Positions 22,448-50,449 of a DNA stretch of 64,000 bases are shown here, in pieces. The notes beneath the pieces were generated by a model. The model saw nothing but the letters and a program-made list of their open reading frames with translations. It searched no databases and was not told the origin of the DNA. Within the stretch, counting starts at the first letter, position 1. Every line of letters begins with the position of its first letter. The translations under genes and the position numbers were made by a program. Source of the DNA: Loxodes magnus (lineage: Eukaryota; Ciliophora; Karyorelictea; Loxodida; Loxodidae); NCBI GenBank assembly GCA_946699065.1, contig CAMPDV010000139.1, positions 62,001-126,000 on the forward strand. Reading direction: 5' to 3'.

Positions 22448-23317
22448 AGTAATTTCGCTATAATAATAATAATAGTAAACTAAATGTTAAAAAAATGTTT
22501 TGGCATATTCTGGATTTTCAACCAGTTCCTGCCGCCATTTTTTTGACTCGGATGGATACCGCGACCATTTTTTTATGTGGATGGTTACCACTGATTGCTT
22601 TCAAAAGAGCGCATAGACAGTTTTTATTTGTATATTCCTGTTGGAGTTATCCATAGAAAATTCAATGCTCTTCATGTTCTTTATTATACCTTTTCATTTA
22701 ATTTCTTTCATTCTCGGCATCTTCTTAATAAGTGGTAATTGGATTGGCAATATCAACATTATTTTTTAATCTTCTTTTGACTAATATGTATTTTTAAATA
22801 GCTTATTTTCAATATTTTCTAGTCTTTTAATTAAGTTATTATCATATTTAATTTCTTTCTGTTCTTAAGCACTTTATAATGGAGTGAAAGTTTTTTCAAT
22901 TTCCATCTTTGATGTACGTTAAGATTTTTATTGCGATTACATTCAAAGTTGTTCTTCCGTTATTACCTTGTTTTCTATTAGCTGATTCTTAAGGATTTCC
23001 ATTTCATTATTTTGCACGTCAATGTTTGTTGTAAGTTCCCGTATTAATAAGTCTTAATTATATATTGTTTCTTCGTATCGGGATATAATTTTTTACATTT
23101 GTTCGATCTTTTGTCGTAGTTCCTCTGAAATATCTGATTTAAATTCCTCAGCTTGCAAAGTTCCGATCATTATTTTACCTTATGAGTCGGAACTTGATTC
23201 TTCTTATTGTTTTTCTTTTTATCGAAGTACTTAAGCAGCCTTTTTCCGAGCATTTCTTATTTTATTTTTATTTAGTCTAATGTTCTGGTCCATCTTTTTT
23301 TTTAGTAATTTCGCTAT
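22448..23317 (-). mobile_element. ORF1-only retroposon with 14-bp target-site duplication, unit 1 copy
   Basis: The 14-mer AGTAATTTCGCTAT occurs at 22448-22461 and again at 23304-23317, directly flanking the insertion. On the minus strand the element starts with a short A-rich leader just before ATG 23293. It ends in a simple TTA/TAT run (22462-22476), a typical LINE-like tail. The diverged unit at 46.6 kb has the undisturbed, unoccupied site (AATTTGCTTTTA.. context, about 46603-46640). The only gene inside is the Gag-like ORF. Confidence 0.8.
22500..23293 (-). CDS. Gag/ORF1-like coiled-coil protein inside the retroposon
   Basis: About 260 codons from ATG 23293. The basic N-terminus (IRLNKNKIRNARKKAAQ) and ESSSDSQGKIMIG are shared with the truncated gene at 12611. 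A long coiled coil follows (EELRQKIEQMQKIISRYEE; NNEMEILKNQLIENKVITEEQ; LIKRLENIENKLFKN). Instead of a CCHC knuckle the C-terminus has a Trp/Lys-rich piece (IHIKKWSRYPSESKKWRQEL) encoded by an imperfect 29-bp tandem repeat at about 22530-22588. TGA is used as Trp three times. The exact end is unclear. Confidence 0.65.
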
Positions 23318-23319
23318 TA

Positions 23320-24920
23320 TTTAAGATTTAACTTGATTATATAAACGATTATTAATATATCTTTCTAATAATCAAATCTGGAAATCTACTAACTTTATGA
23401 TTTAAACTTTATTTAACTAAAAGAGTCTTGAATCATCTTTTAATTATTGGAATTTGCTTCCTTCAATTAAAGTTGTTATAGTGTTATTTAAAAAATTTTC
23501 AACTCTTCACGCTTTCATCTTCATCCTCTTTTACAGCTAAATCACTCATTCACCTAAAATCTTCCACTAGTTCTTCTTACTCTACTTTCCCTTCCACGTT
23601 TTCTTGACTCTTATTTATGATTTATTGAAGGAATTTCTCTTCTTAAAGATAATGATTAGTTACTAAGCTAATATTGATAGAAATATAATCATAAATTAAC
23701 TTTTTAAATAATTTTAAAATTTGCTTACTAATTTATGCTTAAGTAATTGATTATTACGATATAATAATTACAACAAATTACATGTACCTTTGTATATACG
23801 TATATTATTATAGCTTAGTTAATTATATAAAGGCCATTTTAATGAATAAATCTTAAATTCTATTTTATTATAATTATTATTTTAAGGTTTATTTCTCAAT
23901 TTATAAAAGAGTAATAAAATCTCAAATTTTATAAGTGTTTTATCTGAAAACCATTTAAGAAGAGTATTTTTCAAGTTGCATAATCTTTAATAAAATAATT
24001 TTTACATTATTGGCATGTAGCATGTTATAATTAATTTGATTCTATTTTAACTGCAACAAATTAATTATAAACTTCCAAGTTTTCTTTTTCGTTTTCTTTA
24101 ATATTTATTTCTTAAATTAACTTACATAACTTTATTTTCCTTAATTTTTAAAATAAGTTAAATAATTTTAAAATAAAGGAAAATACTTATTTCTTTTTCA
24201 TGTTTCATTAAAAATTAATTAATTCAATTTTCCTTAATAAACCTTTATTCTTTTTACAATTTTTTATAATTCCCTATTATTTCAATTTTTAGTTAATTGA
24301 TATAAATATAGCTCATTATTTATTAAGCTTCTTATCAAATATGAAATTAGTTCCCACGAATAGAAATATTTTTATTTTTTTATTAATCAATGTTAATTAG
24401 TAAGAACTTAATATTTTTATTATTGAAAGATTTTAGTAAGAATATAAATAAGTTAATTTTTAAATATCTACAAAACATAATTTATACTGATTAATTCACA
24501 TTATAATTCAATTAAGTAATGAATACTTTTCATTGACATTATTTTAATAATTAATTAAAATTTTTATTTCTTTTTATAAATTTTCTAAATATCATACTTA
24601 ATAAAAATTATACATTTTTTTAATATACATAGAAGATATCTCTTCTAATCTATTTTTATAAAAGCATCAATAAAAATATTTTGCTTTCACTAAAAATAAA
24701 TTATTTCCTTCTTAATTATCTTTTAAAATCTATTTTCATTCTTTTTTCAAGCATTAACTATTATTATTTGCTTGCAAAGGTCAATTTTTGAAACTATTAA
24801 CTCTTTTAACTTTAAATATTTTAGCTTTAAAAAAGTAAAAATTATTAAATATCAAAGTTAAATAAGGAAAGTAATTTCTGATAGTAAATAAGTAATTTAG
24901 ATATAAATAAATAAATAAAT
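23320..24920. other. AT-rich part of tandem unit 1, no gene seen
   Basis: AT-rich, T-rich on the plus strand and repeated at 33416-35016. A C-rich patch at 23500-23600 gives no coherent reading. Confidence 0.55.
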
Positions 24921-24928
24921 TTTATTAT

Positions 24929-25395
24929 AGAGCGCCTAGCACTCTCGTTGGTGCGCAGCTCTTTAAAAATGTTTCATACTGACAAGAACGTTTGCTACTG
25001 ACAAGAATGTTTGCTACTGATAAACCTTGTTCAATACTGGTATAATTATTCAGTAATGATAAAAATGTTCAATATTGATATAATTTCAGAATACTCGTAA
25101 TCTTTAATAATTGTTGGGAATTCAAGAATATGGCAGGGTTGCGTCTCATTGCGTCGCCAAGGCAGAGGACGACATGTGTCAATTATGGGTACTTAAATTC
25201 CCCACCTCTGATGAAGCTCGCAATATTATTTCTTTTTAGTTCCAGAATTAAAAATAAACGAAGCCAGTGCCGAAGGTTGAATTAGCAGATGTCTCGAGGA
25301 AAAGCCGAAGCAGAGGAAGTCATAAAGTCGATTATGGATACTTAGCTTCCCCAATCTCTGATGAAGATATCCCTTGTTGTTCACCTTCGAGCAAC
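24929..25395 (-). repeat. H element copy H3 (unit 1)
   Basis: Reverse orientation. Terminal hairpin 24929-24964, iterons about 24970-25085, the two CAGAGG/CCTCTG modules about 25155-25225 and 25305-25365, and the outer palindrome GTTGTTC-ACCTTC-GAGCAAC at 25376-25395. One base of the hairpin stem differs from H2 (GCTAGGCGC for GCTACGCGC). Confidence 0.85.
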
Positions 25396-25399
25396 TATA

Positions 25400-26090
25400 T
25401 TAAAAAATGAATAATAAAGTTATTATATAATAAAAAATTAAATTATCATTAAAAACTTAGCATTTATAGATTTTTTTCAGATTATAGTTCACATTGCTAA
25501 TGAAGAAAAACCTTGATTAATAAATTTTAATAAAACATTTAACGATATAAGAAATTATTATTTATTATACCATAATTTATATATTAATTTCTAGATTATT
25601 CAAAATAAAATTATTAAGTAAGTATATTATAAAAAGTTTTATCTATTTTCTTTAGTTTTATTTTTAAAACACATTAAATAGCAATTTCTAGTTTTTCCAC
25701 AATTAATCAATAATTCAGTTTCAGTTCACTATATTACTCATCTACCTTTTTGCCATCTGAAGAAATCTTAAACAACTCAAAATAATTAAACAATATTTTT
25801 TATTTTCTTTATATTATTTATTCTGAAGATAAAGAATTTTATATAATTCACTTAATGAAAACTAATTATATTATATTATATTAAATTTAATTATGTAATC
25901 AAAATTTGTTTCATATAATTAAGATGCTTATTTTATGTATTAAGCAAAAAATTTATTTCATTAAAATTTATTTCTAAGAGCGTCAATTAATTTTTATGCT
26001 TGATAACTAATTTCTTAATTTTTTATCCATTTTTTATAAAATAATCTAAAAATGTTTTTATTTATAAAATATGCTATGTTAGATCTAATA
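25400..26090. other. AT-rich part of tandem unit 1, no gene seen
   Basis: Low-complexity AT-rich DNA, repeated at 35496-36186. Confidence 0.6.
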
Positions 26091-26095
26091 TATGG

Positions 26096-26638
26096 TCATT
26101 ATTTTAAAACCAACATAAAAAGTTAAAATATTAAAATTAAAAAAATTGTTAAATTTACGTTCTTTTTTTGATAATTAAAAAATGCTAAAATTACTTCATC
26201 TTATTCGATTTCCGCTGGATTAAGTTTTTTTCCTTGATATTGTTTTTCTAAGTAATTATTAAAGTAGGCTACTCCTACTCATTTTGTTATGTTTGTTTGC
26301 GCATTTTCAAAAACCGTTTGTGTCATTTGTTCTTTTTGATTTCCAACTACTGAGAGAATTTGCTCGTATTCATTTCTAGGGATAATGGCTTGCAACATTT
26401 GTTTTTTCTGATAGATATTTTCGTTTTGGGACTTGTTTCTCTCGTTTTTTCTCATAATTTCTCCAAGAAGTTTGCTTTTCTTTCTAAAAGCGTTTTTTAG
26501 GTTATGAAAGTTATGCAAATTTTCACTCTTTGGTAAACTCTTACATGTCTTTAGAATTACTTACCTGTAATCCCGTTTCAGGTGTTGCGGCATGTAGGAA
26601 GTGGGATTGCTATATTTCTTTAGAGCTAAAGTATCCAT
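26096..26638 (-). CDS. Unknown 180-aa helical protein, unit 1 copy
   Basis: ATG 26638 to TGA 26096-26098 is 181 codons. The first ~150 residues are clearly coding-like: MDTLALKKYSNPTSYMPQ, KNAFRKKSKLLGEIMRKNER, QAIIPRNEYEQILSVVGNQ, KWVGVAYFNNYLEKQ (the W is TGA). The 79-residue block in the middle is open in any code. The last ~25 residues are low-complexity hydrophobic and may be untranslated. No family recognised. An apparently identical copy is at 36192-36734. Confidence 0.6.
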
Positions 26639-27886
26639 ATTTTTTTATTAATAACTATTATAATATTTATCCATTTAAATTAGTAAAATTATAAATTTTA
26701 GTAATTCTATACTAATATACATAGCTTAAACTAGTTTAGATTTTAAAACTTTGAATATAGTTTAAGTTAAAATGTTTACTAAATATAAAAATTAAAAGTT
26801 ATAAATGTTTTTATTTTTAATAATTCTTATAATTGATAAAATTAAATTTTCTAATAGTAAGACATTTAATTCTATTTTACAAAATACTTATATTAGCATT
26901 ATTTTACCCTTAAGATCTCCTCCGATAATTATAAATTATCTGTTTCTAAATAACTTTTAAATAAAGAATCTTAATAATTTTGCCTATCTTTTACTTCTTA
27001 CAGCATAATTTTATATTTCATTTTAGTTAAATTATTCCAATAGAAATAGAATTAGAAAAAAAATTGGTAGTAATCAAAATATAATCAGCGAATAAATTAT
27101 TATTGCTATAAATGAAATTTACAAATTAATTTATACTTAAATAGTAGCTTTTATGGTATAATCATTATAATACTTTTTTTGTTCCTTTAGTATATTTGTA
27201 TTAACTTTACTATTATTCACTACCTTTATGTCACTTTATAATTAAAATCTTATATTCTATAGGTATTATCATTAGTATTTTCAGATTTCTCCAAAATCCT
27301 TTATAAAGGGATTGAATTCTCCCATCAATATATAAGGATTACTAGTAATCAATCAAATTTAATAATAAAATTAATTAAAAATAGACTAACATTATTAATT
27401 TTAATAGCTCATAGAATCATCATTTTTCTGATCTTTAAAGCACACAAATTTAAATCTAAACTACTGCTTTATAATTATAATATAAAATTAGGTAACTAAA
27501 AATTAGATATATGAAAACTTTTGTTTATTCGAGAATAAAAAGATCTAAAATACACTATAAAAAGACTAATAAATAAGAAAAAATTTTTAAATGAAAAGTT
27601 AATTAGTACAAAGCGAATTATTACTCGAATTATTACTCTGATAATTAAACCTAAATAAGTAACTAAAGAAGCATTTAAAACATATTATAAACATTATATA
27701 AATAAAACTTATTAGAAACACAAAAAATATGAAATATAAAATGAGTTAATAAATTTAGATATATAATAACAAAAGAAAAAGTTACAGTAAAACTCAATAT
27801 TTAACTGATAAACAATAATTTTTAAATATGATTTATTGAAGATTACTCATCCCTTTTACAAGCTTAATTTTACAAACTAAGTTAAA

Positions 27887-28072
27887 TCATTAAAATAACT
27901 GTTCACCTTCCGGCTTAATTGAAGTTTTAAATGTATAAAATCTCCTTTCCTGCATGTTCGTTCCTTGTGCTCTTTTTCCTGGACTTCTCTCTTTTTAATA
28001 GTCTGAGTTAAGAATTTTTTTTTTTTTAAGATTTTCCCATTTCCCGATGGGAAGAATTCCGTCGCTTGTCGT
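27887..28072 (-). pseudogene. 61-aa ORF, unit 2 copy without its ATG
   Basis: Same reading as 18464-18649 (DGILPIGKWE, KERSPGKRAQGTN) over 62 codons, but the start codon position is ACG and the next residues differ (TTSDG for MANDG). Either the true start lies upstream or this copy is dead. Confidence 0.5.
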
Positions 28073-28657
28073 TTCAGTTGCTAATAGTTAATATTACTCC
28101 AAATATTCATTCTTATTCTTTTCTATTGGATACAAACTAAGTAAATTAAAATTTTCTTAATTTACTTTCTGATTTACTACAGCTTATTTAATATAACTTA
28201 TTATTTTTTTGATGCAAATAAAAAATCATAATTTTATTTCTTGAGATCAAATTAACACTATTTTGTATTATTATAGATAATAACTAGACTTAAATGGTTT
28301 TATTTTAAATCCAATAGGAAAAAGATATTTAATAGGTATCATTAAAGCATATTAAAAGTATATATTGTTAATATAACTAAGTAATAATTATTTATTATAA
28401 TAACTAATTGCTTATAATAGTAAAATAGAAACTAAATATTAAAGAAATAGTAAAAATAGCAAAATAAATAAATATATTATTATTATTCTATATGTTTGGT
28501 ATATTTTATAGCAGCTTATTATTAAATATCTTTTAATTAAATATACTATACTTTATTCTCATTAAAAATAGAAAGGTTTTAACCTTAATAATTTTCAAAT
28601 GAAAACTACACAGAAAAAAGATTTTAAAAGTTATAATATTAAGAATTTAAATATAAT

Positions 28658-29307
28658 TTAAATAATTTAAATATGTACCTCCAGGAAGAGGTTAGAAAAT
28701 TACGAAAGGAAAATGAAAAGCTAACTGAGCAGATTTAACACGGGTTTTAGGATACTCTAGACCTTAGAATGGCCAATTAGGAAAGAGAGCTCACTGCTCT
28801 CTGAAATTATTAAAAAGATAAACTTTGTTAGACGAACTCCTAAGTAAAGAAGATTTAGGACTAAAATTAATTCCTTGAAAACATAATATAGAGCCAATAA
28901 AGCCAATAGAGTCAGGTGATTCCCTAGCATAATAGAATGGACATTGAAAATGAAAATATTTACTAAAGGATGATAGTAGCATAATAATAGAACTGGAAAC
29001 CTAGAAAGCGCTGTTACTTTTGTAAAAGTAGTTATCTTCTGCAAAAAAATGTAGATAATTTCAATAATTTAAAAGATAATACTGACTTAGAGAGATACAA
29101 AGAGCTCAAAGGCTATGATGTGATCGAGAAGGGAGAATTTTCAAGCGTAGAATTACTGTAATGTAATCAGCTAAGGAGCAGGAAATGCAAGGAAGAGAAA
29201 CTAAGACCATTGGTAGAGAAGGACTAAACTTTTAGACCCATTATTTGAACGGCGGATATGATTCTGCTGTTAAACAATATTAAATAAATTAAATAATTTA
29301 AATATGT
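28658..29307 (+). mobile_element. 5'-truncated Gag cassette with 19-bp direct repeats, unit 2
   Basis: TTAAATAATTTAAATATGT occurs at 28658-28676 and 29289-29307, flanking about 612 bp that is absent from unit 1 (empty site at about 19245-19262). The inserted DNA is richer in GC than its surroundings. The flanking repeat itself supplies an ATG in frame with the Gag reading. Because the flank is low-complexity AT DNA, the exact duplication length is uncertain. Confidence 0.7.
28672..29280 (+). CDS. Gag/ORF1-like coiled-coil protein, knuckle degenerate
   Basis: About 200 codons reading EEVRKLRKENEKLTEQ then IQHGFQDTLDL (matching the 4206 gene), Gln-rich linkers, MDIENENIYQ (compare PMEIENE at 11513), and RKRCYFCKSSYLLQKN. 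In that last block the CX2C of the knuckle is present but the expected His and last Cys are missing. The starting ATG comes from the target sequence. The minus-strand standard-code ORFs of 95 and 63 codons here are shadows. Confidence 0.6.
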
Positions 29308-30507
29308 TAGTTTTTTACTTAAAACTAGTAAGTTTTTTAAAAAATATATCCTATTCATTCTTGGAATTTCGTTTTAAAAAATTAAAAAATATATGAAAAA
29401 AGCTTCTCTAAACTTTAGATATTATTCTTATAATATTTAATAGTAAATATATCAATTTGAATTTAGAAAATTCTAACATTAGATTTAAATTTTATAATTA
29501 CCCATACTAAGTAAAATCTATAAAAAGATAGTAAAAAGAAATAAAATTGCAATTTATTTTTATTTACAAAAAATAATAATATAAAATGATAAATTTCTAA
29601 TTTAATTATATAAGTACTCATAAATATAAATATTTGAAATAATATTTTATTATAAAATGATTAAAAAAGATATGTTACTTGGTTAGTTATTATTGATAAT
29701 TAAAGATGAACAAATAAAGTTTATGAAGTGAATTAAAAGTAATGATTTATATATAAAATTAGATATAATTATTATTTCTTATAGTAAATATATAAACTAA
29801 GTAAAATATAATAATTATTAAATAAAGAGGTAAATATATTATGAATTACTATATCATCAAATAATATAAATTAAAATAATTTAACCACTTTTAGGATATT
29901 TCTTAAATTATCAAGGCATATTAAAACTATTTTTATTTCTTTTTATCATTATTTCGTATCGTCAGTACAAAATATTTAGATAATTTAGTATTATTATTCA
30001 GTATATTAGATGATGAGTATCTTACACTATGATTTATTTCTTGAAATTTATCTTATTATATTAATTAAAGAATTATTTAATAGTTTTCTCTAAGATAATT
30101 CTTTACATATTTTAAATAATTCAATCTATTTAGAAATTTTATTCTTTTCTATAATTTGACTAATTTAGTGAATTTTTCAAATATCTATAAACTTTTTAGT
30201 AATTAAGGTGTAAGAAAGAATTAGATTTAATTAAGCGGAAATTCAGTTGATTTTAATATATATCTACGAAAATAGATTAAATAGGCATACTCAAGTGGGT
30301 AAGTTAATTAAAAGATAATCGAACCGTAAGTAATTTCAAAGGAATCTCATTTTAGTTTGTCAAGCAAGAACTTCGATAAAATTAATAATAAAAATTTTCC
30401 TTCTGCAAGTTTGCTCTTGATTTTAAGGAAAAGGCTTCTTACATATTTAAGAAAAAAAATTATCAATACATGCTATTCTTGATGGAATTTCATCCTGTAC
30501 CATTGAT

Positions 30508-31016
30508 TCAATGGTCAAAAGAAAAAATAAATATTTAAATGTCTTTTTCCATTATTTTCAAATCTTGCACAGTTTACTTAATGATTAACTTCTCTTTGTC
30601 AATAATCCTTTCCTTTTTTCCTAAAAATTTCTCCTAAGCCTTCGCAGCTAAACTTTCAAATTAATTCTTGATACTTCTCTAGTATTATCTTTTTATTTTT
30701 GCTATTTTTTCAAGTCGCTTTTCGGTACTATCTAAGGATCTATATAAATTTTTTAACATATTTTCAATAGTTTTTTGACAAATTGCAATAGTGAAACTGT
30801 TTCTTCCTATTTTCCTAATTTTTATCTGAACATCTTCTATTTGTATTCAATTAGATTTTTAACCCTGTTTTTAAAGTTTGTAATTAAATTCTCTTTACTA
30901 CTTAAACATCCAATCTGTTTATAGATTTTGCTTATCTATTTTCTTAGACTGGGTGTTAGGTTTCTACTCTGGTTTTTTCCAAATTTTAGAAGGATTAAGA
31001 TCTCTTCTTAAGACAT
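30508..31016 (-). pseudogene. 169-aa gene, unit 2 copy, frameshifted
   Basis: 509 bp against 510 in unit 1. One A is missing at about 30821 (codon ~65), so everything after KMFR is out of frame. Otherwise it has only scattered substitutions, several of them silent. Confidence 0.65.
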
Positions 31017-32543
31017 AAATTTTGAGTTATTTTTTAATTTTTTAAATTACTCCAAAATATTTCGAAGTTTATTGCTTTTTAAGATTTTACAAATAGTTTC
31101 CAATTAATAAATTTATAATATCTAGATATATGAAAAAGAGGATTTTCTCATTATTTTAATATTAAAAACAATTAATAGAAATTTTATAAAAAAGTAAATA
31201 TAACATTTTTTTCTTTATATTAATTGAATAATGTTCTATTTAAAAAAGCATTTTAAGTTAATTCTAATAATTTTTTTAACTTTTAATAGAGTTGCTGATT
31301 GGAATTTTATTATTACTATTTAATTTAAAAATTACTTTTTATTCTTTTATTTGATAAAAAATGTAAAATAAATATAATATTATTTAAATATTTAATTATT
31401 AAATTATTTATTATCTTATACTATTTTTATTTTATAAAGTATCTATTTTATTTAATTAAAATGTTTTATAATATTTAAATTTTCCAAAATTTTCAATTAT
31501 ATATTTATAATAATCAACATTAGGCCTACCAATTTTAATATGTTTTCCAATTTCTAATTATACTGATAAAATAAAGAAATATAGTATAGATTTTATTCTA
31601 TTAACATATATATTTAAAAATTTAATGTCTTTACTATCTTAAAATAAGTAATTAATGGTAAGAATTCTTAATATTCTTATTTAGAAATGTTTGATTTTCC
31701 AATATAAAGTTAAATGATATTTAGTAATTTTACTAAAACTAAACTATTTTCTTATATATTTACTTATTTTTCTTATATTAAGATATTAAATTACTATTCA
31801 CATTTATATTATATTTCATTTTATTATAATAGTTATTTCTTGACTAGGATAATAAATAATTTCTTTTCTGATGTATAAAAGATTTAAAAGAACCTATCAA
31901 TTCTTTAGACTAAAATGAAATAAATACAAATATATGTAATAAATTATGTTTCCGTTGTTTAAAGGCTTTTCGAATAATAGAACTCAAGCTTGTCGCATAT
32001 TTTTTATAGTAGAAATAGTTATTTTTAAATATTTAATTACTATATCTATCATCCATTTTCTCATGTGTGTAATACAAAATATCCGCAAATGGTTTTAAAA
32101 TACCAAGATATGTTTTAATATCTCACTGTTGAAAAGCTACTATTTCCTCTATAAAATGCTAATCAGAGATGCTTATTTGACGCATTTTATTAGCTTTTTT
32201 AAGTTAATTGAGAATATAAATTTATAATTCGCTATTATCTGATTTACGACATTTCATCAACTTTTAAATTCTATTTTACTTATTTTATTTTCCTTTTCAA
32301 TTATTAATTGCTCATATTTATCAATTTTAACTACAATTTAGTTTATTTGAATGTACTTAATCCGTTTAATAAAATCTTCATTTTTTCAGATTGATAAAAC
32401 AATAAATTATCTTCTATTCTTCACATAAATACTATGATCATAATTATTATATTTTAATCCAAAAATATTACTTTTACTTTCTGACTTACGAAAGATAATA
32501 TCTTAATATATCAAAGCAAGCATAGAAAAAATGATTTTCTATA

Positions 32544-33413
32544 AGTAATTTCGCTATAATAATAATAATAGTAAACTAAATGTTAAAAAAATGTTTTGGC
32601 ATATTCTGGATTTTCAACCAGTTCCTGCCGCCATTTTTTTGACTCGGATGGATACCGCGACCATTTTTTTATGTGGATGGTTACCACTGATTGCTTTCAA
32701 AAGAGCGCATAGACAGTTTTTATTTGTATATTCCTGTTGGAGTTATCCATAGAAAATTCAATGCTCTTCATGTTCTTTATTATACCTTTTCATTTAATTT
32801 CTTTCATTCTCGGCATCTTCTTAATAAGTGGTAATTGGATTGGCAATATCAACATTATTTTTTAATCTTCTTTTGACTAATATGTATTTTTAAATAGCTT
32901 ATTTTCAATATTTTCTAGTCTTTTAATTAAGTTATTATCATATTTAATTTCTTTCTGTTCTTAAGCACTTTATAATGGAGTGAAAGTTTTTTCAATTTCC
33001 ATCTTTGATGTACGTTAAGATTTTTATTGCGATTACATTCAAAGTTGTTCTTCCGTTATTACCTTGTTTTCTATTAGCTGATTCTTAAGGATTTCCATTT
33101 CATTATTTTGCACGTCAATGTTTGTTGTAAGTTCCCGTATTAATAAGTCTTAATTATATATTGTTTCTTCGTATCGGGATATAATTTTTTACATTTGTTC
33201 GATCTTTTGTCGTAGTTCCTCTGAAATATCTGATTTAAATTCCTCAGCTTGCAAAGTTCCGATCATTATTTTACCTTATGAGTCGGAACTTGATTCTTCT
33301 TATTGTTTTTCTTTTTATCGAAGTACTTAAGCAGCCTTTTTCCGAGCATTTCTTATTTTATTTTTATTTAGTCTAATGTTCTGGTCCATCTTTTTTTTTA
33401 GTAATTTCGCTAT
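32544..33413 (-). mobile_element. ORF1-only retroposon, unit 2 copy
   Basis: Same insertion as 22448-23317, carried along by the duplication: the 14-bp repeats are at 32544-32557 and 33400-33413. The gene reads from ATG 33389 to about 32596 and I saw no difference from the unit 1 copy. Confidence 0.75.
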
Positions 33414-35024
33414 TATTTAAGATTTAACTTGATTATATAAACGATTATTAATATATCTTTCTAATAATCAAATCTGGAAATCTACTAACTTTATGATTTA
33501 AACTTTATTTAACTAAAAGAGTCTTGAATCATCTTTTAATTATTGGAATTTGCTTCCTTCAATTAAAGTTGTTATAGTGTTATTTAAAAAATTTTCAACT
33601 CTTCACGCTTTCATCTTCATCCTCTTTTACAGCTAAATCACTCATTCACCTAAAATCTTCCACTAGTTCTTCTTACTCTACTTTCCCTTCCACGTTTTCT
33701 TGACTCTTATTTATGATTTATTGAAGGAATTTCTCTTCTTAAAGATAATGATTAGTTACTAAGCTAATATTGATAGAAATATAATCATAAATTAACTTTT
33801 TAAATAATTTTAAAATTTGCTTACTAATTTATGCTTAAGTAATTGATTATTACGATATAATAATTACAACAAATTACATGTACCTTTGTATATACGTATA
33901 TTATTATAGCTTAGTTAATTATATAAAGGCCATTTTAATGAATAAATCTTAAATTCTATTTTATTATAATTATTATTTTAAGGTTTATTTCTCAATTTAT
34001 AAAAGAGTAATAAAATCTCAAATTTTATAAGTGTTTTATCTGAAAACCATTTAAGAAGAGTATTTTTCAAGTTGCATAATCTTTAATAAAATAATTTTTA
34101 CATTATTGGCATGTAGCATGTTATAATTAATTTGATTCTATTTTAACTGCAACAAATTAATTATAAACTTCCAAGTTTTCTTTTTCGTTTTCTTTAATAT
34201 TTATTTCTTAAATTAACTTACATAACTTTATTTTCCTTAATTTTTAAAATAAGTTAAATAATTTTAAAATAAAGGAAAATACTTATTTCTTTTTCATGTT
34301 TCATTAAAAATTAATTAATTCAATTTTCCTTAATAAACCTTTATTCTTTTTACAATTTTTTATAATTCCCTATTATTTCAATTTTTAGTTAATTGATATA
34401 AATATAGCTCATTATTTATTAAGCTTCTTATCAAATATGAAATTAGTTCCCACGAATAGAAATATTTTTATTTTTTTATTAATCAATGTTAATTAGTAAG
34501 AACTTAATATTTTTATTATTGAAAGATTTTAGTAAGAATATAAATAAGTTAATTTTTAAATATCTACAAAACATAATTTATACTGATTAATTCACATTAT
34601 AATTCAATTAAGTAATGAATACTTTTCATTGACATTATTTTAATAATTAATTAAAATTTTTATTTCTTTTTATAAATTTTCTAAATATCATACTTAATAA
34701 AAATTATACATTTTTTTAATATACATAGAAGATATCTCTTCTAATCTATTTTTATAAAAGCATCAATAAAAATATTTTGCTTTCACTAAAAATAAATTAT
34801 TTCCTTCTTAATTATCTTTTAAAATCTATTTTCATTCTTTTTTCAAGCATTAACTATTATTATTTGCTTGCAAAGGTCAATTTTTGAAACTATTAACTCT
34901 TTTAACTTTAAATATTTTAGCTTTAAAAAAGTAAAAATTATTAAATATCAAAGTTAAATAAGGAAAGTAATTTCTGATAGTAAATAAGTAATTTAGATAT
35001 AAATAAATAAATAAATTTTATTAT

Positions 35025-35491
35025 AGAGCGCCTAGCACTCTCGTTGGTGCGCAGCTCTTTAAAAATGTTTCATACTGACAAGAACGTTTGCTACTGACAA
35101 GAATGTTTGCTACTGATAAACCTTGTTCAATACTGGTATAATTATTCAGTAATGATAAAAATGTTCAATATTGATATAATTTCAGAATACTCGTAATCTT
35201 TAATAATTGTTGGGAATTCAAGAATATGGCAGGGTTGCGTCTCATTGCGTCGCCAAGGCAGAGGACGACATGTGTCAATTATGGGTACTTAAATTCCCCA
35301 CCTCTGATGAAGCTCGCAATATTATTTCTTTTTAGTTCCAGAATTAAAAATAAACGAAGCCAGTGCCGAAGGTTGAATTAGCAGATGTCTCGAGGAAAAG
35401 CCGAAGCAGAGGAAGTCATAAAGTCGATTATGGATACTTAGCTTCCCCAATCTCTGATGAAGATATCCCTTGTTGTTCACCTTCGAGCAAC
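35025..35491 (-). repeat. H element copy H4 (unit 2)
   Basis: Same as H3 base for base wherever compared; hairpin 35025-35060, palindrome 35472-35491. Confidence 0.85.
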
Positions 35492-36191
35492 TATATTAAA
35501 AAATGAATAATAAAGTTATTATATAATAAAAAATTAAATTATCATTAAAAACTTAGCATTTATAGATTTTTTTCAGATTATAGTTCACATTGCTAATGAA
35601 GAAAAACCTTGATTAATAAATTTTAATAAAACATTTAACGATATAAGAAATTATTATTTATTATACCATAATTTATATATTAATTTCTAGATTATTCAAA
35701 ATAAAATTATTAAGTAAGTATATTATAAAAAGTTTTATCTATTTTCTTTAGTTTTATTTTTAAAACACATTAAATAGCAATTTCTAGTTTTTCCACAATT
35801 AATCAATAATTCAGTTTCAGTTCACTATATTACTCATCTACCTTTTTGCCATCTGAAGAAATCTTAAACAACTCAAAATAATTAAACAATATTTTTTATT
35901 TTCTTTATATTATTTATTCTGAAGATAAAGAATTTTATATAATTCACTTAATGAAAACTAATTATATTATATTATATTAAATTTAATTATGTAATCAAAA
36001 TTTGTTTCATATAATTAAGATGCTTATTTTATGTATTAAGCAAAAAATTTATTTCATTAAAATTTATTTCTAAGAGCGTCAATTAATTTTTATGCTTGAT
36101 AACTAATTTCTTAATTTTTTATCCATTTTTTATAAAATAATCTAAAAATGTTTTTATTTATAAAATATGCTATGTTAGATCTAATATATGG

Positions 36192-36734: not shown

Positions 36735-38753
36735 ATTTTTTTATTAATAACTATTATAATATTTATCCATTTAAATTAGTAAAATTATAAATTTTAGTAA
36801 TTCTATACTAATATACATAGCTTAAACTAGTTTAGATTTTAAAACTTTGAATATAGTTTAAGTTAAAATGTTTACTAAATATAAAAATTAAAAGTTATAA
36901 ATGTTTTTATTTTTAATAATTCTTATAATTGATAAAATTAAATTTTCTAATAGTAAGACATTTAATTCTATTTTACAAAATACTTATATTAGCATTATTT
37001 TACCCTTAAGATCTCCTCCGATAATTATAAATTATCTGTTTCTAAATAACTTTTAAATAAAGAATCTTAATAATTTTGCCTATCTTTTACTTCTTACAGC
37101 ATAATTTTATATTTCATTTTAGTTAAATTATTCCAATAGAAATAGAATTAGAAAAAAAATTGGTAGTAATCAAAATATAATCAGCGAATAAATTATTATT
37201 GCTATAAATGAAATTTACAAATTAATTTATACTTAAATAGTAGCTTTTATGGTATAATCATTATAATACTTTTTTTGTTCCTTTAGTATATTTGTATTAA
37301 CTTTACTATTATTCACTACCTTTATGTCACTTTATAATTAAAATCTTATATTCTATAGGTATTATCATTAGTATTTTCAGATTTCTCCAAAATCCTTTAT
37401 AAAGGGATTGAATTCTCCCATCAATATATAAGGATTACTAGTAATCAATCAAATTTAATAATAAAATTAATTAAAAATAGACTAACATTATTAATTTTAA
37501 TAGCTCATAGAATCATCATTTTTCTGATCTTTAAAGCACACAAATTTAAATCTAAACTACTGCTTTATAATTATAATATAAAATTAGGTAACTAAAAATT
37601 AGATATATGAAAACTTTTGTTTATTCGAGAATAAAAAGATCTAAAATACACTATAAAAAGACTAATAAATAAGAAAAAATTTTTAAATGAAAAGTTAATT
37701 AGTACAAAGCGAATTATTACTCGAATTATTACTCTGATAATTAAACCTAAATAAGTAACTAAAGAAGCATTTAAAACATATTATAAACATTATATAAATA
37801 AAACTTATTAGAAACACAAAAAATATGAAATATAAAATGAGTTAATAAATTTAGATATATAATAACAAAAGAAAAAGTTACAGTAAAACTCAATATTTAA
37901 CTGATAAACAATAATTTTTAAATATGATTTATTGAAGATTACTCATCCCTTTTACAAGCTTAATTTTACAAACTAAGTTAAATCATTAAAATAACTGTTC
38001 ACCTTCCGGCTTAATTGAAGTTTTAAATGTATAAAATCTCCTTTCCTGCATGTTCGTTCCTTGTGCTCTTTTTCCTGGACTTCTCTCTTTTTAATAGTCT
38101 GAGTTAAGAATTTTTTTTTTTTTAAGATTTTCCCATTTCCCGATGGGAAGAATTCCGTCGCTTGTCGTTTCAGTTGCTAATAGTTAATATTACTCCAAAT
38201 ATTCATTCTTATTCTTTTCTATTGGATACAAACTAAGTAAATTAAAATTTTCTTAATTTACTTTCTGATTTACTACAGCTTATTTAATATAACTTATTAT
38301 TTTTTTGATGCAAATAAAAAATCATAATTTTATTTCTTGAGATCAAATTAACACTATTTTGTATTATTATAGATAATAACTAGACTTAAATGGTTTTATT
38401 TTAAATCCAATAGGAAAAAGATATTTAATAGGTATCATTAAAGCATATTAAAAGTATATATTGTTAATATAACTAAGTAATAATTATTTATTATAATAAC
38501 TAATTGCTTATAATAGTAAAATAGAAACTAAATATTAAAGAAATAGTAAAAATAGCAAAATAAATAAATATATTATTATTATTCTATATGTTTGGTATAT
38601 TTTATAGCAGCTTATTATTAAATATCTTTTAATTAAATATACTATACTTTATTCTCATTAAAAATAGAAAGGTTTTAACCTTAATAATTTTCAAATGAAA
38701 ACTACACAGAAAAAAGATTTTAAAAGTTATAATATTAAGAATTTAAATATAAT

Positions 38754-39403
38754 TTAAATAATTTAAATATGTACCTCCAGGAAGAGGTTAGAAAATTACG
38801 AAAGGAAAATGAAAAGCTAACTGAGCAGATTTAACACGGGTTTTAGGATACTCTAGACCTTAGAATGGCCAATTAGGAAAGAGAGCTCACTGCTCTCTGA
38901 AATTATTAAAAAGATAAACTTTGTTAGACGAACTCCTAAGTAAAGAAGATTTAGGACTAAAATTAATTCCTTGAAAACATAATATAGAGCCAATAAAGCC
39001 AATAGAGTCAGGTGATTCCCTAGCATAATAGAATGGACATTGAAAATGAAAATATTTACTAAAGGATGATAGTAGCATAATAATAGAACTGGAAACCTAG
39101 AAAGCGCTGTTACTTTTGTAAAAGTAGTTATCTTCTGCAAAAAAATGTAGATAATTTCAATAATTTAAAAGATAATACTGACTTAGAGAGATACAAAGAG
39201 CTCAAAGGCTATGATGTGATCGAGAAGGGAGAATTTTCAAGCGTAGAATTACTGTAATGTAATCAGCTAAGGAGCAGGAAATGCAAGGAAGAGAAACTAA
39301 GACCATTGGTAGAGAAGGACTAAACTTTTAGACCCATTATTTGAACGGCGGATATGATTCTGCTGTTAAACAATATTAAATAAATTAAATAATTTAAATA
39401 TGT
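38754..39403 (+). mobile_element. 5'-truncated Gag cassette, unit 3 copy
   Basis: Same insertion and flanking 19-mer as 28658-29307, shifted by 10,096 bp, with the same reading frame and degenerate knuckle. Confidence 0.7.
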
Positions 39404-40619
39404 TAGTTTTTTACTTAAAACTAGTAAGTTTTTTAAAAAATATATCCTATTCATTCTTGGAATTTCGTTTTAAAAAATTAAAAAATATATGAAAAAAGCT
39501 TCTCTAAACTTTAGATATTATTCTTATAATATTTAATAGAAAATATAATTAAAAAATATATAAATTTATATTAAGAAAATTCTAACATTAAATTTAAATT
39601 TTATAATTACGTATACTAAGTAAAATCTATAAAAAGATAGTAAAAAAGAAATAAAATTGCAATTTATTTTTATTTACAAAAAATAATCTTATAAAATGAT
39701 AAATTTCTAATTTAATTATATAAGTACTCATAAAAAATAAATATTTGAGATAATATTTTATTATAAAATGATTAAAAAAGATATGTTACTTGGTTAGTTA
39801 TTATTGATAATTAAAGATGAACAAATAAAGTTTATGAAGTGAATTAAAAGTAATGATTTATATATAAAATTAGATATAATTATTATTTCTTATAGTAAAT
39901 ATATAAACTAAGTAAAATATAATAATTATTAAATAAAGAGGTAAATATATTATGAATTACTATATTATTAAATAATATAAATTAAAATAATTTAACCACT
40001 TTTAGGATATTTCTTAAATTATCAAGGCATATTAAAACTTTTTTTATCTCTTTTTGTCATTATTTCGTATCGTCAGTACAAAATATTTAGATAATTTAGT
40101 ATTATTATTCAGTATATTAGATGATGAGTATCTTACACTATGATTTATTTCTTGAAATTTATCTTATTATATTAATTAAAGAATTATTTAATAGTTTTCT
40201 CTAAGATAATTCTTTACATATTTTAAATAATTCAATCTATTTAGAAATTTTATTCTTTTTCTAGAAATTGACTAATTTAGTGAATTTTTCAAATATCTAT
40301 AAACTTTTTAGTAATTAAAGTGTAAGAAAGAATTAGATTTAATTAAGCGGACGTTCAGTTGATTTTAATATATATCTACGAAAATAGATTAAATAGGCAT
40401 ACTCAAGTGGGTAAGTTAATTAAAAGATAATCGAACCGTAAGTAATTTCAAAGGAATCTCATTTTAGTTTGTCAAGCAAGAACTTCGATAGAATTAATAA
40501 TAAAAATTTTCCTTCTGCAAGTTTGCTCTTGATTTTAAGGAAAAGGCTTCTTACATATTTAAGAAAAAAAATTATCAATACATGCTATTCTTGATGGAAT
40601 TTCATCCTGTACCATTGAT

Positions 40620-41128
40620 TCAATGGTCAAAAGAAAAAATAAATATTTAAATGTCTTTTTCCATTATTTTCAAATCTTGCACAGTTTACTTAATGATTAA
40701 CTTCTCTTTGTCAATAATCCTTTCCTTTTTTCCTAAAAATTTCTCCTAAGCCTTCGCAGCTAAACTTTCAAATTAATTCTTGATACTTCTCTAGTATTAT
40801 CTTTTTATTTTTGCTATTTTTTCAAGTCGCTTTTCGGTACTATCTAAGGATCTATATAAATTTTTTAACATATTTTCAATAGTTTTTTGACAAATTGCAA
40901 TAGTGAAACTGTTTCTTCCTATTTTCCTAATTTTTATCTGAACATCTTCTATTTGTATTCAATTAGATTTTTAACCCTGTTTTTAAAGTTTGTAATTAAA
41001 TTCTCTTTACTACTTAAACATCCAATCTGTTTATAGATTTTGCTTATCTATTTTCTTAGACTGGGTGTTAGGTTTCTACTCTGGTTTTTTCCAAATTTTA
41101 GAAGGATTAAGATCTCTTCTTAAGACAT
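40620..41128 (-). pseudogene. 169-aa gene, unit 3 copy, frameshifted
   Basis: 509 bp with the same one-base deletion as the unit 2 copy, so the deletion predates the split of units 2 and 3. Confidence 0.65.
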
Positions 41129-41530
41129 AAATTTTGAGTTATTTTTTAATTTTTTAAATTACTCCAAAATATTTCGAAGTTTATTGCTTTTTAAGATTTT
41201 ACAAATAGTTTCCAATTAATAAATTTATAATATCTAGATATATGAAAAAGAGGATTTTCTCATTATTTTAATATTAAAAACAATTAATAGAAATTTTATA
41301 AAAAAGTAAATATAACATTTTTTTCTTCATATTAATTGAATAATGTTCTATTTTAAAAAAGCATTTTAAGTTAATTCTAATAATTTTTTTAACTTTTAAT
41401 ATAGTTGCTGATTGGAATTTTATTATTACTATTTAATTTAAAAATTAATTTTTGTTCTTTTATTTGATAAAAAATGTAAAATAAATATAATATTATTTAA
41501 ATATTTAATTATTAAATTATTTATTATCTT

Positions 41531-42511
41531 ATACTATAATTAAAAATATGGAAGGTCTTAAGAAAGGCTTCTATACCACCTCCTCCAAAGTCTAAAAGGA
41601 GGAGAGGAAGAAGGAAGTTCTAAAGACTAAAACCCAAACCTAGACCCTCTAATAATAACATTCTCCCCAGAAGACCTAAAAATAACTCTAAACAACTCCT
41701 CCCAAACAGCCTCAGAAACATAGCCATGCTACTACCTCAACGGAAAATCTTCCAAAGAAGCAGAAGATAAGCGACTTTCAGACGCAAATTCGGAACTTCT
41801 CACCATATATGGACCTCGGTGAGATAAACAAGGAACAAATACTCGGAATGGCTAAAGAGGAAATGGCTAAATTAATTATAGCGTTAATTAGCCATAACTA
41901 AGACCTAGAGAAATAGGTTATGGAGCTTGCCCAAGAACAACAATGACACCTAGACGACGAGGAGATGCATGCTCCTAGAAACAAAAACTAAGCTGCCATG
42001 AATATTCGAATTGACGAATTCGACAGGCAGTTGGAATAGCTATATGAGATGAACGAGAACGTGCACATCAAGTTAGAGAAAATTGAAAACAATATTAACC
42101 TTAAAATGGAGAATATCAAGAATGATATCAAGATCTAGACAGCACACTCCGTTCCAATGGAGTTGGAAGAGGTCTAGAATAAACAAATCGAATTAACTAA
42201 AGAAAGATACTTTAAGAAAAAATGCTTTATCTGTGGAAGAATAAACCATCTCTGAAGGAAATGCAGATAAAGAAAAGAGATCCTAAAGAAAATTTGAAAC
42301 GAACTAACCTAATTCTACCCAACTAGCAGTGGGAATATTTATAGGAAGAAAAGCAATATTCGGAGCAATCCACTGCGAAGACTTGAAAGTGACTGGAGGA
42401 ACAGACCATCAAGAGTTTAAGTACCTATCAGTTGTATAGGGAGTAGGAAACTATTAAGAAAACAATCCCTTCTCTAAATAACTTAAATTTAATTTAATAA
42501 TGCAATACTAT
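41531..42511 (+). mobile_element. ORF1-only cassette inserted in unit 3
   Basis: Unit 3 is interrupted after ATACTAT (41531-41537). ATACTAT recurs at 42505-42511, followed by sequence resembling the continuation of the unit (TATTTTATAAAGT). The inserted ~967 bp is markedly richer in GC and has a single clean ORF. The 7-bp direct repeat is short, so the insertion boundaries are less certain than for the other cassettes. Confidence 0.6.
41548..42490 (+). CDS. Gag/ORF1-like protein with CCHC zinc knuckle, ~310 aa
   Basis: The cleanest member of the family: one frame from ATG 41548 with no break. N-terminus GLKKGFYTTSSK, a Gln/Pro-rich region (residues ~30-75), then a long coiled coil (EEMAKLIIALISHNQDLEKQ; DEFDRQLEQLYEMNENVHIK). 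Then PMELEEV, the knuckle CFICGRINHLWRKC (CX2CX4HX4C, about 42217-42260) with its Trp encoded by TGA at 42253-42255, and the tail YPTSSGNIYRKK shared with the 11513 protein. A second in-frame TGA at 42295-42297 precedes that conserved tail, so it must also be read through as sense. No enzyme domain. Confidence 0.8.
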
Positions 42512-44290
42512 TATATTAGTTATAGTGTATTTTATAAAGTTAGTAAGAGAACAGTCATTATATTAGAATATCATTTTAATCTAAAAATAATTATATATTT
42601 ATATGTATATTTGCTTTATTAATACTATCTATTAAATATTAAAAATGATTACCAAAAATGGAAGTTTTCAAATAAGATTAGAAAAAAAGTAAACAAATTT
42701 TAATATAAAATTTAGTTATTAACATTATAAAAAATTGATTTTTGTTTATTAATTATATGAATCTTATTAAGTTTTGAGTAAAATATGTTCTTTTATTAAA
42801 AAGTTGGCAGTTACACTAAATTAAACATACTACTTATGATAGGAAATTTTTTATAAATTATTAAATAAAAAAATGAAAAACCCGTTATTATTTCTAAAAT
42901 TCTGTTTATGATTTTTTAAATAGTAATTAGCAAAAATAGATAAAATAATTTGTAATAAGGTATAGCTAAAGCTAGTAAATAAATGTAAATAAAACAATTA
43001 TGTATAATAAAAATTGATACTTAAAAATTAATAAAACATAAATTAGTTAAAGATATATTAACTTAATATTTATTAATTTTATATTTTAAATTGATGCTAT
43101 TAGAGTCTTTTAATTACTCACATTTAATTAAAATATTTAAATTACTAGAGAAACTAATATTTTATTAGAAAAATTTAAAATAATTCTTTTAAGAGACTAA
43201 TTATTATGTTGTATAAAATTAAATAATTTAAGATTGTAAAAAGATGTATTATTTTTGAATTAATCATATGAAAGAAAATTAATAATTTATTTAAATTTAA
43301 TTTTCTTATAGTAAAGATGGGTAATTATAATATAAATTAACTTTTTAGGAATCAAAAGATAATATAATTATACAATGGAATTTAATATTTAATAATATTA
43401 ATTTTAGTAGTTTAATAATGTAATTTTTTTACTGATATAAAGTAAACTAAATGCTAGTATAGATTTAATTTCCTTAGTCTAATTTCTTTGAATTTTATCG
43501 TTTAAAATTACTTCTTTTAATTAAAGATATTTCCGTTCTTAAGAAATAAAAGCTTTATTCTTCCTTTTCCTTGTCTACCACACTCATTGCAATCTTCTCT
43601 AATCTTAATAACTTAACAATTATAAGATAAAATTAAGGTAAATGATTCAAGTCTATCTTTCTTCAAAAAAAACTTGTTAAATTCAAGATGTACATATTTT
43701 CATCTTCCCAGCCTCTAATATTTAGCATCTTAATATTCTACCAACTTTCTAAAAAATTATTTATGTACATTAACAGCACAGCATCAATTTCTTATATCTA
43801 AATTTATAACCTTATACTGAAATGATTTCCTCAAATCTTTATAATATATATATTTCACCATATAATTGAATATAATTATTCTTTACATTTAAAATATAGA
43901 TTTTGAACTAGATATTTAGAGTTTTATAATTACTTTTGGAAATTATAAGAAATGTTCTTATTTTATATTAATAATATTATTTTCTATATTATTTATTTAA
44001 CTTTACATATTATATTACTGGTATATAATATTTAAAAAATTATATTTTAGAAATTACAATCTTTCCAACAAAACTTTAAAATTCTTCATGACCAATGATC
44101 TTCTTTTTAAGAAGGAGAAGTAAAAGTTAACAAAGGCAGTGATATTTATATTCTTAAAATTAAATTAATTCTATGGAAATTTTAAAATCAGAAAGCTTTA
44201 TATTACGAAAGGAATTAGATCTAAATACATAGTTTTAGAAAATTTAATGGATAATTTTATAGAAAGAATATATCGAAAGTGAAATTTAAA
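42512..44290. other. AT-rich stretch, no gene seen
   Basis: Very AT-rich. A slightly more C-rich patch at 43550-43760 gives no consistent reading. No repeat relationship recognised beyond the first few dozen bases. Confidence 0.55.
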
Positions 44291-44299
44291 GCACTAGAA

Positions 44300-44800
44300 A
44301 CTGTAAGTTAGAATAATTCTAAATACTAAACGGCTCAATGGAAATAGGGCAAAAACCTATAAAATAATACATTACCTACCAAGAGTAACATTTGAAGATA
44401 TTGTAAGCAGCTAGGACATAAAGAACGAGCTTGTTATCAATTTAGAAAAAAGAAAAGAGAATAATAGATAAATATTTATTCATATTTATTGCATTAAAGA
44501 AGGTTTGTTTTATAGGAAAAAATACTCTGAGTAAATAAAGTAGCTCCCTATATCTAATAAGCAATTAATGAATTCAATAGAGGATTATTATTATTTTACC
44601 TATAGGAATAAATCAAGAAAAATAATCTTAAATTCATCAAGACTAATGAAAGTGAAGATTTCAGAAAACTTTAGGCTACCACTATTTTTAAGCAATAATA
44701 TAATATGCGGTAAACCAATAAAAGGTAGTACAGAAATAATAAATTGTATTATGTTATATACTTTAAAATCATTTAATATAAATTTATACCGTAGCTAATA
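44300..44800 (+). pseudogene. Degenerate Gag/ORF1-like gene
   Basis: Pieces of the family in order: MEIGQKP (44338, the PMEIE position), a knuckle reading xRYCKQLGHKERAC (CX4HX4C) in which the first Cys codon position is TGA, and a tail GLFYRKKYSEQ (44500) matching the YRKK tails at 11513 and 41548. A frame change lies between the first two pieces. A 76-codon stretch from 44568 follows in frame with the tail (LPLFLSNNIICGKPIKG) and may be the protein's C-terminus. Confidence 0.55.
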
Positions 44801-45182
44801 TGCTAAATCTTTCTTTTAAAGTCTTATAAAGATAGTATTGTTTTCTTTATTTGATAAACTTAATAAAAATCAAATCTGCTGCAAATTACTTTTTTCTTAA
44901 TTCTTTATCATAGAATGTAGCTATTTATTGATTTTATTGTAGTATATTTTCTCTTAAAAAATTGCAAAAAATGTTATTTCTGATTTAATATATAAAATAA
45001 TTTCTTTCTGATTTCTAACAAATTTTAAAATATTTTCATTATTTTAACTTAAAAGGAAATAAATTTAAAAATATGTAATAAATTATGTTTCCGCTATTTA
45101 AATCTTCATAATTTAATAAAACTTAAGCTTGCCATATATTTTTATTTGTAGGAATAATAATTTGCAAACTATTTTATTATTC

Positions 45183-46136
45183 TAATTATTCTCCACTTAA
45201 AAGAGGAAAAAAAGATGTCGTAATCTGGTTTCAGAAAAGGCTTTTTTCCTGCGAGTAAAGAGGAGCAGAAGAGTGGCTAGCAAACTGCATCAGTTCAATC
45301 TGGCAAAAGAATCTAGCACTCACTTGGAACTCCAGTCATTCAAGAGCAACCTAGATAATAACAGGAAACTTAAGTCAGATAAATCCCTGTTGAAAAAGTC
45401 CTAATAGAATAGGAGGAAGAAATAGACTATAAGTAATTGGCTTTAAGCTTAGTCAAAGAGGTTGCGAAATTGAAATAGGAAATTTAATAGCTCAGAGTGT
45501 ATGCTGAAACGGAAGCTTAAACATCTGATTAGCGAGCCGTTAACTCTGAACGAGAACTACAAGCAATGTGGAACATGACATAAGAGCAGTCCCATCTATA
45601 GACTATGACCAATGGTAAGATTGACGATATTTTAAAAGCAGTTTCTATGGCAAAAATTTTAAATTATCCTCTATTAGCTGTTAGGCCAGTTACGATGGAA
45701 ATAGAATCAGTTTAACCTTTCAGCTAAACTTTCAGAGTTAGACCAAGGAAAAACCTGTAAGGAAATGCTTTCAATGTGGTAGCATTTGACATTTATACCG
45801 TTAATGGAATAAATTTAGGTAGGTTCAACATTAATATTGGGAGAAGTAGTATTGGCTTCAGCAGAACTACCTAGCAGAGTAAAGAGCTAGAACAAGATTT
45901 TAAAAAGCAAAGTTAAACAAAATGTATTGCAACCCGAATGGTTATGTATATAAAGTTAAGGTTTAAAACCAATGAAACTACCCTCACGGCAACAAATGTC
46001 CCTAGTTGCAAAGCTGGAAGGAAAACCAGTTTGATAAACCCATCCAAAAGTAGATAGGATGTAAAAAAGTCAGTTCGAGTTCGAATTGAAAACCTTTCTA
46101 ACGTTTATTAACTTTATTTATAATTATTCTCCACTT
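45183..46136 (+). mobile_element. ORF1-only retroposon with 16-bp target-site duplication
   Basis: TAATTATTCTCCACTT occurs at 45183-45198 and 46121-46136, directly flanking a 922-bp insertion. The inserted DNA starts with an A/G-rich leader just before ATG 45215 and ends in an AT-rich tail. Units 1 and 2 show the uninterrupted sequence at the matching position (about 21955 and 32050). Confidence 0.8.
45215..46110 (+). CDS. Gag/ORF1-like protein with damaged zinc knuckle and a frame break
   Basis: From ATG 45215: GFRKGFFPASKEEQ, Gln/Ser-rich segment, coiled coil (ALSLVKEVAKLKQEIQQLRV), PVTMEIES, then the knuckle CFQCGSIWHLYRQW. In the knuckle the last Cys has become Trp (TGG) and one residue near His is TGA. 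Between MEIES and the knuckle (about 45710-45755) the frame changes. Removing a 14-base GT..AG stretch at 45709 would restore it, but a simple indel is equally likely. Probably a decaying copy. Confidence 0.6.
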
Positions 46137-50175: not shown

Positions 50176-50179
50176 AATT

Positions 50180-50445: not shown

Positions 50446-50449
50446 TTAG

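Follow-up and report, generated by a model that had tools for sequence, protein, structure and literature searches.

A 64,000-nucleotide stretch of the genome of the ciliate Loxodes magnus (contig CAMPDV010000139.1, positions 62001-126000; called the window below, with coordinates counted from its first base) contains five related families of short insertions, E1 to E5, each with a unit of 0.84-0.96 kb with fixed ends. Each unit carries one open reading frame (ORF), which encodes a protein of ~250-310 amino acids with a CCHC zinc knuckle. In most of the sampled families the insertions show the direct repeats and 3' tails typical of target-primed reverse transcription, and the same genome holds a long interspersed element (LINE), named here LINE-A, which has an endonuclease (EN) and a reverse transcriptase (RT) and resembles the insertions in the length of its repeats and in an A-run at the 5' end. 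We consider it probable that E1 to E5 are protein-coding retroposons devoid of an RT, copied in trans by resident LINEs and working in the manner of HAL1 or HeT-A.

Non-autonomous retroposons are usually non-coding, such as the short interspersed elements (SINEs), or dying fragments. HAL1 (half-L1) of mammals is interspersed and copied by the enzymes of L1. It is described as a non-autonomous element derived from L1 and coding for ORF1p only (PMC5753468). HeT-A of Drosophila is presented as an element without long terminal repeats (non-LTR) and without pol, the gag of which bears signs of negative selection and which needs a Pol from elsewhere (PMC5537684). For L. magnus, the LINEs rnd-1_family-27 and -19, of 5-6 kb and with EN and RT, have been reported, together with a lack of extensive DNA elimination and, in the macronuclear (MAC) assembly, 366 Mbp of unclassified interspersed repeats, most of the repeats being unclassified; the main text of that paper gives no match for ORF1 or, as whole words, for gag, SINE, zinc, coiled or non-autonomous (PMC11441545). 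No earlier description of the elements was found among titles and the openings of abstracts, a search that left subscription journals mostly outside. With the families described here, some of the Loxodes interspersed repeats, which are mostly unclassified, can now be identified. These are several families with young copies that carry a protein and no enzyme, the protein being under selection in the two pairs tested, and they make it testable here whether an ORF1-type protein alone gives its own RNA preferential access to the enzyme of another element.

Searches covered 705,730,643 bases in 7,843 contigs. For each family the 40 best-scoring matches were scored, a sample biased to complete copies; the numbers of first-look candidates given below are unscored. 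The window has a G+C content of 23%, and its long reading frames open when TAA and TAG are read as glutamine. Genetic code 6 alone was judged incomplete, since TGA was found at expected tryptophan positions, in the NETW of a LINE endonuclease (which we take to be a motif of that enzyme) and in the HLWRKC of a zinc knuckle; the sequences were therefore re-read with TGA as tryptophan.

The insertions in the window and the corresponding empty sites are the following.

22462..23303, minus strand: E1, full-length copy of an ORF1-only family (unit 844 bp), flanked by target repeats at 22448-22461 and 23304-23317
32558..33399, minus strand: E1, the same insertion duplicated by a 10.1-kb tandem duplication
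28677..29288, plus strand: E2, copy of an ORF1-only element of ~0.86 kb, truncated at the 5' end, repeats 28658-28676 and 29289-29307
38773..39384, plus strand: E2, the same insertion duplicated by the tandem duplication
41543..42498, plus strand: E3, full-length ORF1-only element (956 bp), without a long target repeat here
45199..46120, plus strand: E4, full-length copy of an ORF1-only family (unit ~911 bp), ORF frameshifted in this copy, repeats 45183-45198 and 46121-46136
11422..12298, plus strand: E5, full-length ORF1-only element (~877 bp), without a target repeat, head-to-head with a LINE-A copy
~19236..19254: unoccupied E2 site in an older unit copy, identical to the repeat at all but 2 of 19 bases
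46596..46613: unoccupied E1 site, approximate, in a paralogue that is ~70% diverged

A preliminary description of this DNA had proposed three insertions with direct repeats, E1, E2 and E4, and these are exact to the base: 14 bp for E1 (plus-strand starts 22448 and 23304), 19 bp for E2 (TTAAATAATTTAAATATGT) and 16 bp for E4 (TAATTATTCTCCACTT). A fourth, thought probable at 41538, is a full-length copy of the E3 family, but the longest match between its flanks, in which a long target repeat was sought, is 8 bp. An unoccupied site had been claimed for each insertion. This holds fully for E2, but the paralogues of the E1 and E4 sites are ~70-73% diverged, and no empty site could be shown within the window for E3, because the homology of the surrounding unit ends at the E3 5' end. 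That unit, of ~10.1 kb, lies in tandem at 17539-41537 with neighbouring copies 99.4% identical, and its high-identity stretch stops within a few bases of the E3 start. Because of the tandem duplication, the E1 copies at 22.5 and 32.6 kb and the E2 copies at 28.7 and 38.8 kb are two insertions and not four. E5 is a further family, missed in the preliminary description.

All five families are repeated in the genome, with 2,760 (E1), 802 (E2), 1,482 (E3), 171 (E4) and 2,817 (E5) first-look candidates. Scored matches are 92-99% identical to the window copy (96-98% among the E5 copies), except for nine matches of the E4 search at 75%, which define a sister subfamily, E4b. The 40 scored E4 matches comprise 18 that span the unit at at least 96% (or 100%) identity, the nine E4b matches and 13 partial ones, several of the 40 having common flanks and being copies of one insertion. 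Units with shared ends measure 844 bp (E1), ~860 bp (E2), 956 bp (E3), ~911 bp (E4) and ~877 bp (E5). Two extra families, E8 and E9, were met beside LINEs without being sought, and locus L085 holds a further homologous stretch. In ~100 kb of fetched DNA that had not been selected for elements, the protein profile described below detected six copies or fragments (three in 62.6 kb of seed flanks, one seed in L017 being excluded, and three in 38.0 kb of LINE-selected loci), or ~1 per 17 kb as an order of magnitude.

The ends are characteristic. Sampled copies of E1, E3, E4 and E4b start with an A-run, short in E3, followed by an ATG within ~12 nt, and the 5' end of E5 begins with ATATAAAATGG. After a clear stop the 3' end extends over 16-27 nt and closes in a short repeat specific to the family: TAT in E1, AACTTTAT in E4, TTATAC-like in E4b, TATC in E9 and TTTAAA/TTTAA-like in E3 and E8. 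Neither poly(A) tails nor terminal repeats were present at the ends seen, which have the A-run on one side and the tail repeat on the other. Continuation of full-length members into EN-RT, which would have spoken against the preliminary description, was not seen: the sampled ones run from the family-specific tail directly into flanking DNA.

Matched and mismatched flanks were searched for exact direct repeats of 12 bp or more. In matched flanks such repeats were found in 8/11 copies of E1, 8/8 of E3 (all at independent sites other than that in the window), 8/9 of E4 and 3/4 of E4b, together 27/32, so that repeats are not absent from most copies; the window copies of E1 and E4 are counted among the 32. 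Left out were L002 (the tandem duplicate of L001), L041 (at the L040 site) and, for E4, truncated or cut loci and those with flanks in common with L012 or L023, so that 9 of the 30 loci fetched from the E4 search were used. LINE-A showed such repeats in 9/10 copies. Mismatched flanks gave 1/250 for E1, E3, E4 and E4b and 1/90 for LINE-A, and 2/396 once E5 and LINE-A were added. Repeat lengths are 13-18 bp (E1), 13-19 bp (E3), 14-16 bp (E4), 15-16 bp (E4b) and 16-19 bp (LINE-A), some of the repeats being of low complexity. Many adjoin or overlap the 3' tail, which fits the expectation for target-primed reverse transcription. For E2, the longest flank matches in four copies were 17, 12, 17 and 13 bp, without a control, the 12-bp match being probably tail. 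Nested insertions provided further cases in which the interrupted element serves as the empty site: 17 LINE positions are repeated around an E4b inserted in a LINE-A relative (L049), and 13 positions around an E1 inserted in an E5 (L053). With flanks judged by eye, an E8 lying antisense in a LINE endonuclease region has a 13-bp repeat and an E9 upstream of LINE-C a 14-bp repeat.

Ten protein sequences from E1, E3, E4, E4b and E5 align as one architecture, with a coiled-coil-like stretch (by eye), the motif 'MEIE', one CX2CX4HX4C zinc knuckle and a YPTxSGxxYRKK-type tail. All four knuckle ligands and the G, Y, K and P of the tail are invariant; 'MEIE' is not aligned in E1. A profile built on this alignment recovers E2, which was outside the profile, at E 4.9e-5, the best reversed-window control reaching E 0.36. 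Pfam scans of E1, E3, E4, E4b, E5 and E8 gave no EN or RT match, in agreement with the ORF1-only nature first proposed, and only sub-threshold matches, which are weak knuckles or chance and include zinc knuckles for E3 (none for E8). Against solved structures, the profile matched Copia Gag best (E 9e-4), followed by retroviral nucleocapsid knuckles (E at least 0.005), with kinesin and other coiled coils lower. A pattern search of GTDB and IMG/VR gave 6 and 52 matches, none of them confirmed, as expected because both collections contain no eukaryotes. The product is Gag/ORF1-like, with a probable RNA-binding role.

The protein has been under purifying selection between sister subfamilies in the two pairs tested, E4/E4b and E3/E8. 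For E4 against E4b, the ratio of non-synonymous to synonymous substitution rates (dN/dS) was 0.10-0.12 at a dS of ~1.4-1.6 (three pairs, first 270 codons). For E3 against E8, the proportion of non-synonymous differences (pN) was 0.195-0.198, far below the synonymous one (pS, 0.76-0.77, which is beyond the range of correction), and a control of one pair in two other frames gave 0.94 and 1.33. E4 and E4b can be aligned over their whole length and are both ORF1-only, so the simplest reading is that the constraint acted on elements of this form. The frame of E3 is intact up to a TGA located 20-21 nt before the end in 8/9 loci (7/8 independent sites).

The LINE-A copy in L039 measures ~6.05 kb and has one frame of 1,981 amino acids, with EN (E 9.6e-9) and RT (E 1e-26) domains; it resembles the reported rnd-1_family-27 and -19, from which the elements differ in that neither EN nor RT was found in them. 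An A-run directly precedes the ATG in 7/10 LINE-A copies, one of the others being truncated and two not displayed to the ATG. Its TTTAAA/TTTAA-like tail resembles those of E3 and E8, a likeness that is suggestive but of low complexity. By eye, the DNA that the LINE-A copy in L070 (contig C232) interrupts, seen in the 3' flank of the copy, resembles a tRNA gene. A second LINE, LINE-E, has an RT and an ORF1 without a Pfam match; by eye, its 3' end (L094 ~2940-3014, and L095) has an inverted repeat that is followed at once by a tail of TTTA repeats.

These LINEs bear on the question of origin. Each family could be an internal-deletion remnant of a LINE with a homologous ORF1 and an EN-RT ORF2, as in HAL1, a known precedent (PMC5753468). 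Such an origin finds some support in LINE-E, as a GFKKGFYTTSS-type N-terminus is common to its ORF1 (MVSFKKGFYTTSS) and to E3 (MEGLKKGFYTTSS), E8 (MVEGFKKGFYTTS) and E9, and the knuckle spacing is the same by eye. The LINE-E score was reached by 1/1,693 ATG-started window peptides for each of E3, E8, E9 and E4 and by 4/1,693 for E4b and for E2, in a null set that contains the window's own E3 and E4 and whose scoring peptides were not identified; E1 and E5 do not carry the peptide. Beyond it, however, the LINE-E ORF1 gave a weak knuckle alignment only (hhalign probability 2.4%), and the 3' end of LINE-E differs. The N-terminal 861 amino acids of LINE-A, considered as a source of the element protein, were ruled out (hhalign probability 0.1%, no match). 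Nor did the profile reveal, in any of nine loci upstream of EN matches (from 150 scored of 2,075 first-look candidates), a LINE whose own N-terminus is a domain of the element type; three significant profile matches in these loci were separate or antisense copies, the one in L085 not being bounded. The survey was small, two of the nine loci being LINE-A itself and some maybe 5'-truncated. On balance, we regard descent of each family from such a LINE as unlikely.

Retroposition of ORF1-only elements by LINEs in trans, which we infer from the repeat lengths, the A-run 5' ends and the tails, would proceed as follows. Each element appears to be a copy of a whole short mRNA, usually with a short A-run, an ATG, an ORF of ~250-310 codons and a 3' end. 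It would be transcribed and translated, and the protein would bind its own RNA, mostly in cis. The EN-RT of a LINE would then be recruited, perhaps via the LINE-E-like N-terminal peptide or the LINE-A-like 3' tail. This LINE would nick AT-rich DNA, and reverse transcription from the 3' tail would leave the 13-19 bp repeats, and sometimes the 5' truncation, that are seen in the copies. If the protein aids mainly its own RNA, selection would keep the ORF, as observed in the two pairs. A more specific version is tentative: the elements might form a self-sustaining superfamily, no decay product of resident LINEs, with a cis-acting, RNA-chaperone-like protein, and at least E3/E8 might be chimaeric, with their LINE-E-like N-terminus and LINE-A-like tail drawing on two machineries.

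The way of working would thus be HAL1- or HeT-A-like, and in the small survey no resident LINE emerged as an ancestor. The half-LINE comparison made in the preliminary description is borne out in that, like HAL1, the elements are ORF1-only with target-site repeats (27/32, E5 0/8). At the level of the protein the two differ as far as the surveyed LINEs go: HAL1 is a derivative of L1, whereas here the protein does not match that of LINE-A and shares with LINE-E the N-terminal peptide and the knuckle only; moreover, several homologous families of 0.84-0.96 kb are present. With HeT-A they have in common the gag-only content, but HeT-A forms telomere arrays, whereas the sampled elements are interspersed and most have repeats (telomeres were not searched). 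The absence of detectable EN and RT distinguishes them from autonomous LINEs, and that of long terminal repeats from LTR retrotransposons.

Several observations weigh against copying by LINEs in the service of a maintained protein. None of 8 sampled E5 copies has a repeat of at least 12 bp, nor does the window copy. Comparison of the 3' ends with the LINEs, proposed earlier as a check, brought out the likeness of E3 and E8 to LINE-A, but the tails of E1, E2, E4, E4b and E9 differ from that of LINE-A and from each other, and none of the tails seen matches the LINE-E 3' end by eye; the tails being family-specific and none like that of LINE-E, no single LINE explains all families. Maintenance of the protein is not general either: the frame is intact to a TGA 27 nt before the end in only 1/7 translated E4 loci and to a TGA 16 nt before the end in 2/4 E4b loci, and a clear terminal stop is absent in 11/11 E1 loci, so that the E1 protein may be dead. 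Some E5 copies also have frameshifts. Among private within-family substitutions, 82/226 are synonymous where 68 are expected (p 0.026), with no excess in other frames, so that individual copies are close to neutral.

The state of these frames would also suit SINE-like parasites of which the RNA, and not the protein, matters now, the ORFs being relics; E1 has no clear stop and nevertheless the 2,760 candidates, and frameshifts are present in most of the E4 copies sampled. The elements resemble SINEs in being short, presumed parasites of LINEs with family-specific 3' tails. They differ in coding for a protein, and the dN/dS of ~0.1 between E4 and E4b, and likewise the E3/E8 comparison, would not be expected of relics. 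In addition, Rfam (gathering scores) and ARAGORN detected no RNA gene in the window, hence no head derived from tRNA, 7SL or 5S RNA. We judge this explanation improbable.

The elements could also be retrocopies of a small number of host genes that are under purifying selection of the ordinary kind, all copies being dead processed pseudogenes. The mostly private and nearly neutral variation within families would agree with this, and purifying selection between families is equally compatible with host genes. However, the ends seen have the families' own short tandem repeats, as in LINE-A, instead of poly(A), the knuckle is of Gag type, and there are several homologous families, each with first-look candidates in the hundreds or thousands, which makes a host-gene origin quite improbable. 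Finally, remnants of LTR-retrotransposon Gag, suggested by the profile's weak similarity to retroviral nucleocapsid knuckles and to a Copia Gag, are hardly credible, as terminal repeats are not present and repeats varying between 13 and 19 bp with some 5' truncation fit target-primed reverse transcription and not an integrase.

The ORF1-only retroposons are accompanied in the window by the following pieces of LINEs.

8532..11416, minus strand: LINE-A, 5'-truncated copy, equivalent to positions 3158-6052 of the L039 copy (the one with recognised EN and RT)
~23405..23613, minus strand: short LINE 3'-end insertion adjoining E1, 11-bp repeat TTTATGATTTA
50178..50450, minus strand: LINE-A 3' fragment, 20-bp repeat ATAAATTTACTTATATCTAA

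A single E1 spanning 22.4-23.6 kb was ruled out, as this region consists of E1 and the separate LINE 3'-end piece, each with its own repeat. The head-to-head pair of LINE-A and E5 (8532-12298) was considered as one composite insertion and rejected, a common flank repeat not being seen. A region at ~3.6-4.26 kb (minus strand; LGFRNKFFPVPSS) was discarded as a further element: the profile search was negative, part of it matches another repeat and its ends are not bounded. At 17391-18301, adjacent LINE-related pieces lie in opposite orientations, as in a 5' inversion (twin priming).

Among ten E5 copies whose flanks were viewed, L016 and L062 appeared alike on the 5' side but not on the 3' side, and the element in L061 is directly followed by sequence resembling the 5' end of LINE-E. 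Elsewhere in the window, an unclassified repeat family of ~0.5 kb and ~84% identity, possibly a SINE, occurs in both orientations at 14832-15397, 24910-25458, 35006-35554 and 59490-59988. Tandem 126-bp repeats with 73% matches at 14081-14441 have a translation that is WD-repeat-like by eye. A stretch on the minus strand at 51211-52560, broken into several frames, resembles translation elongation factor 1-alpha and is possibly a retrocopy.

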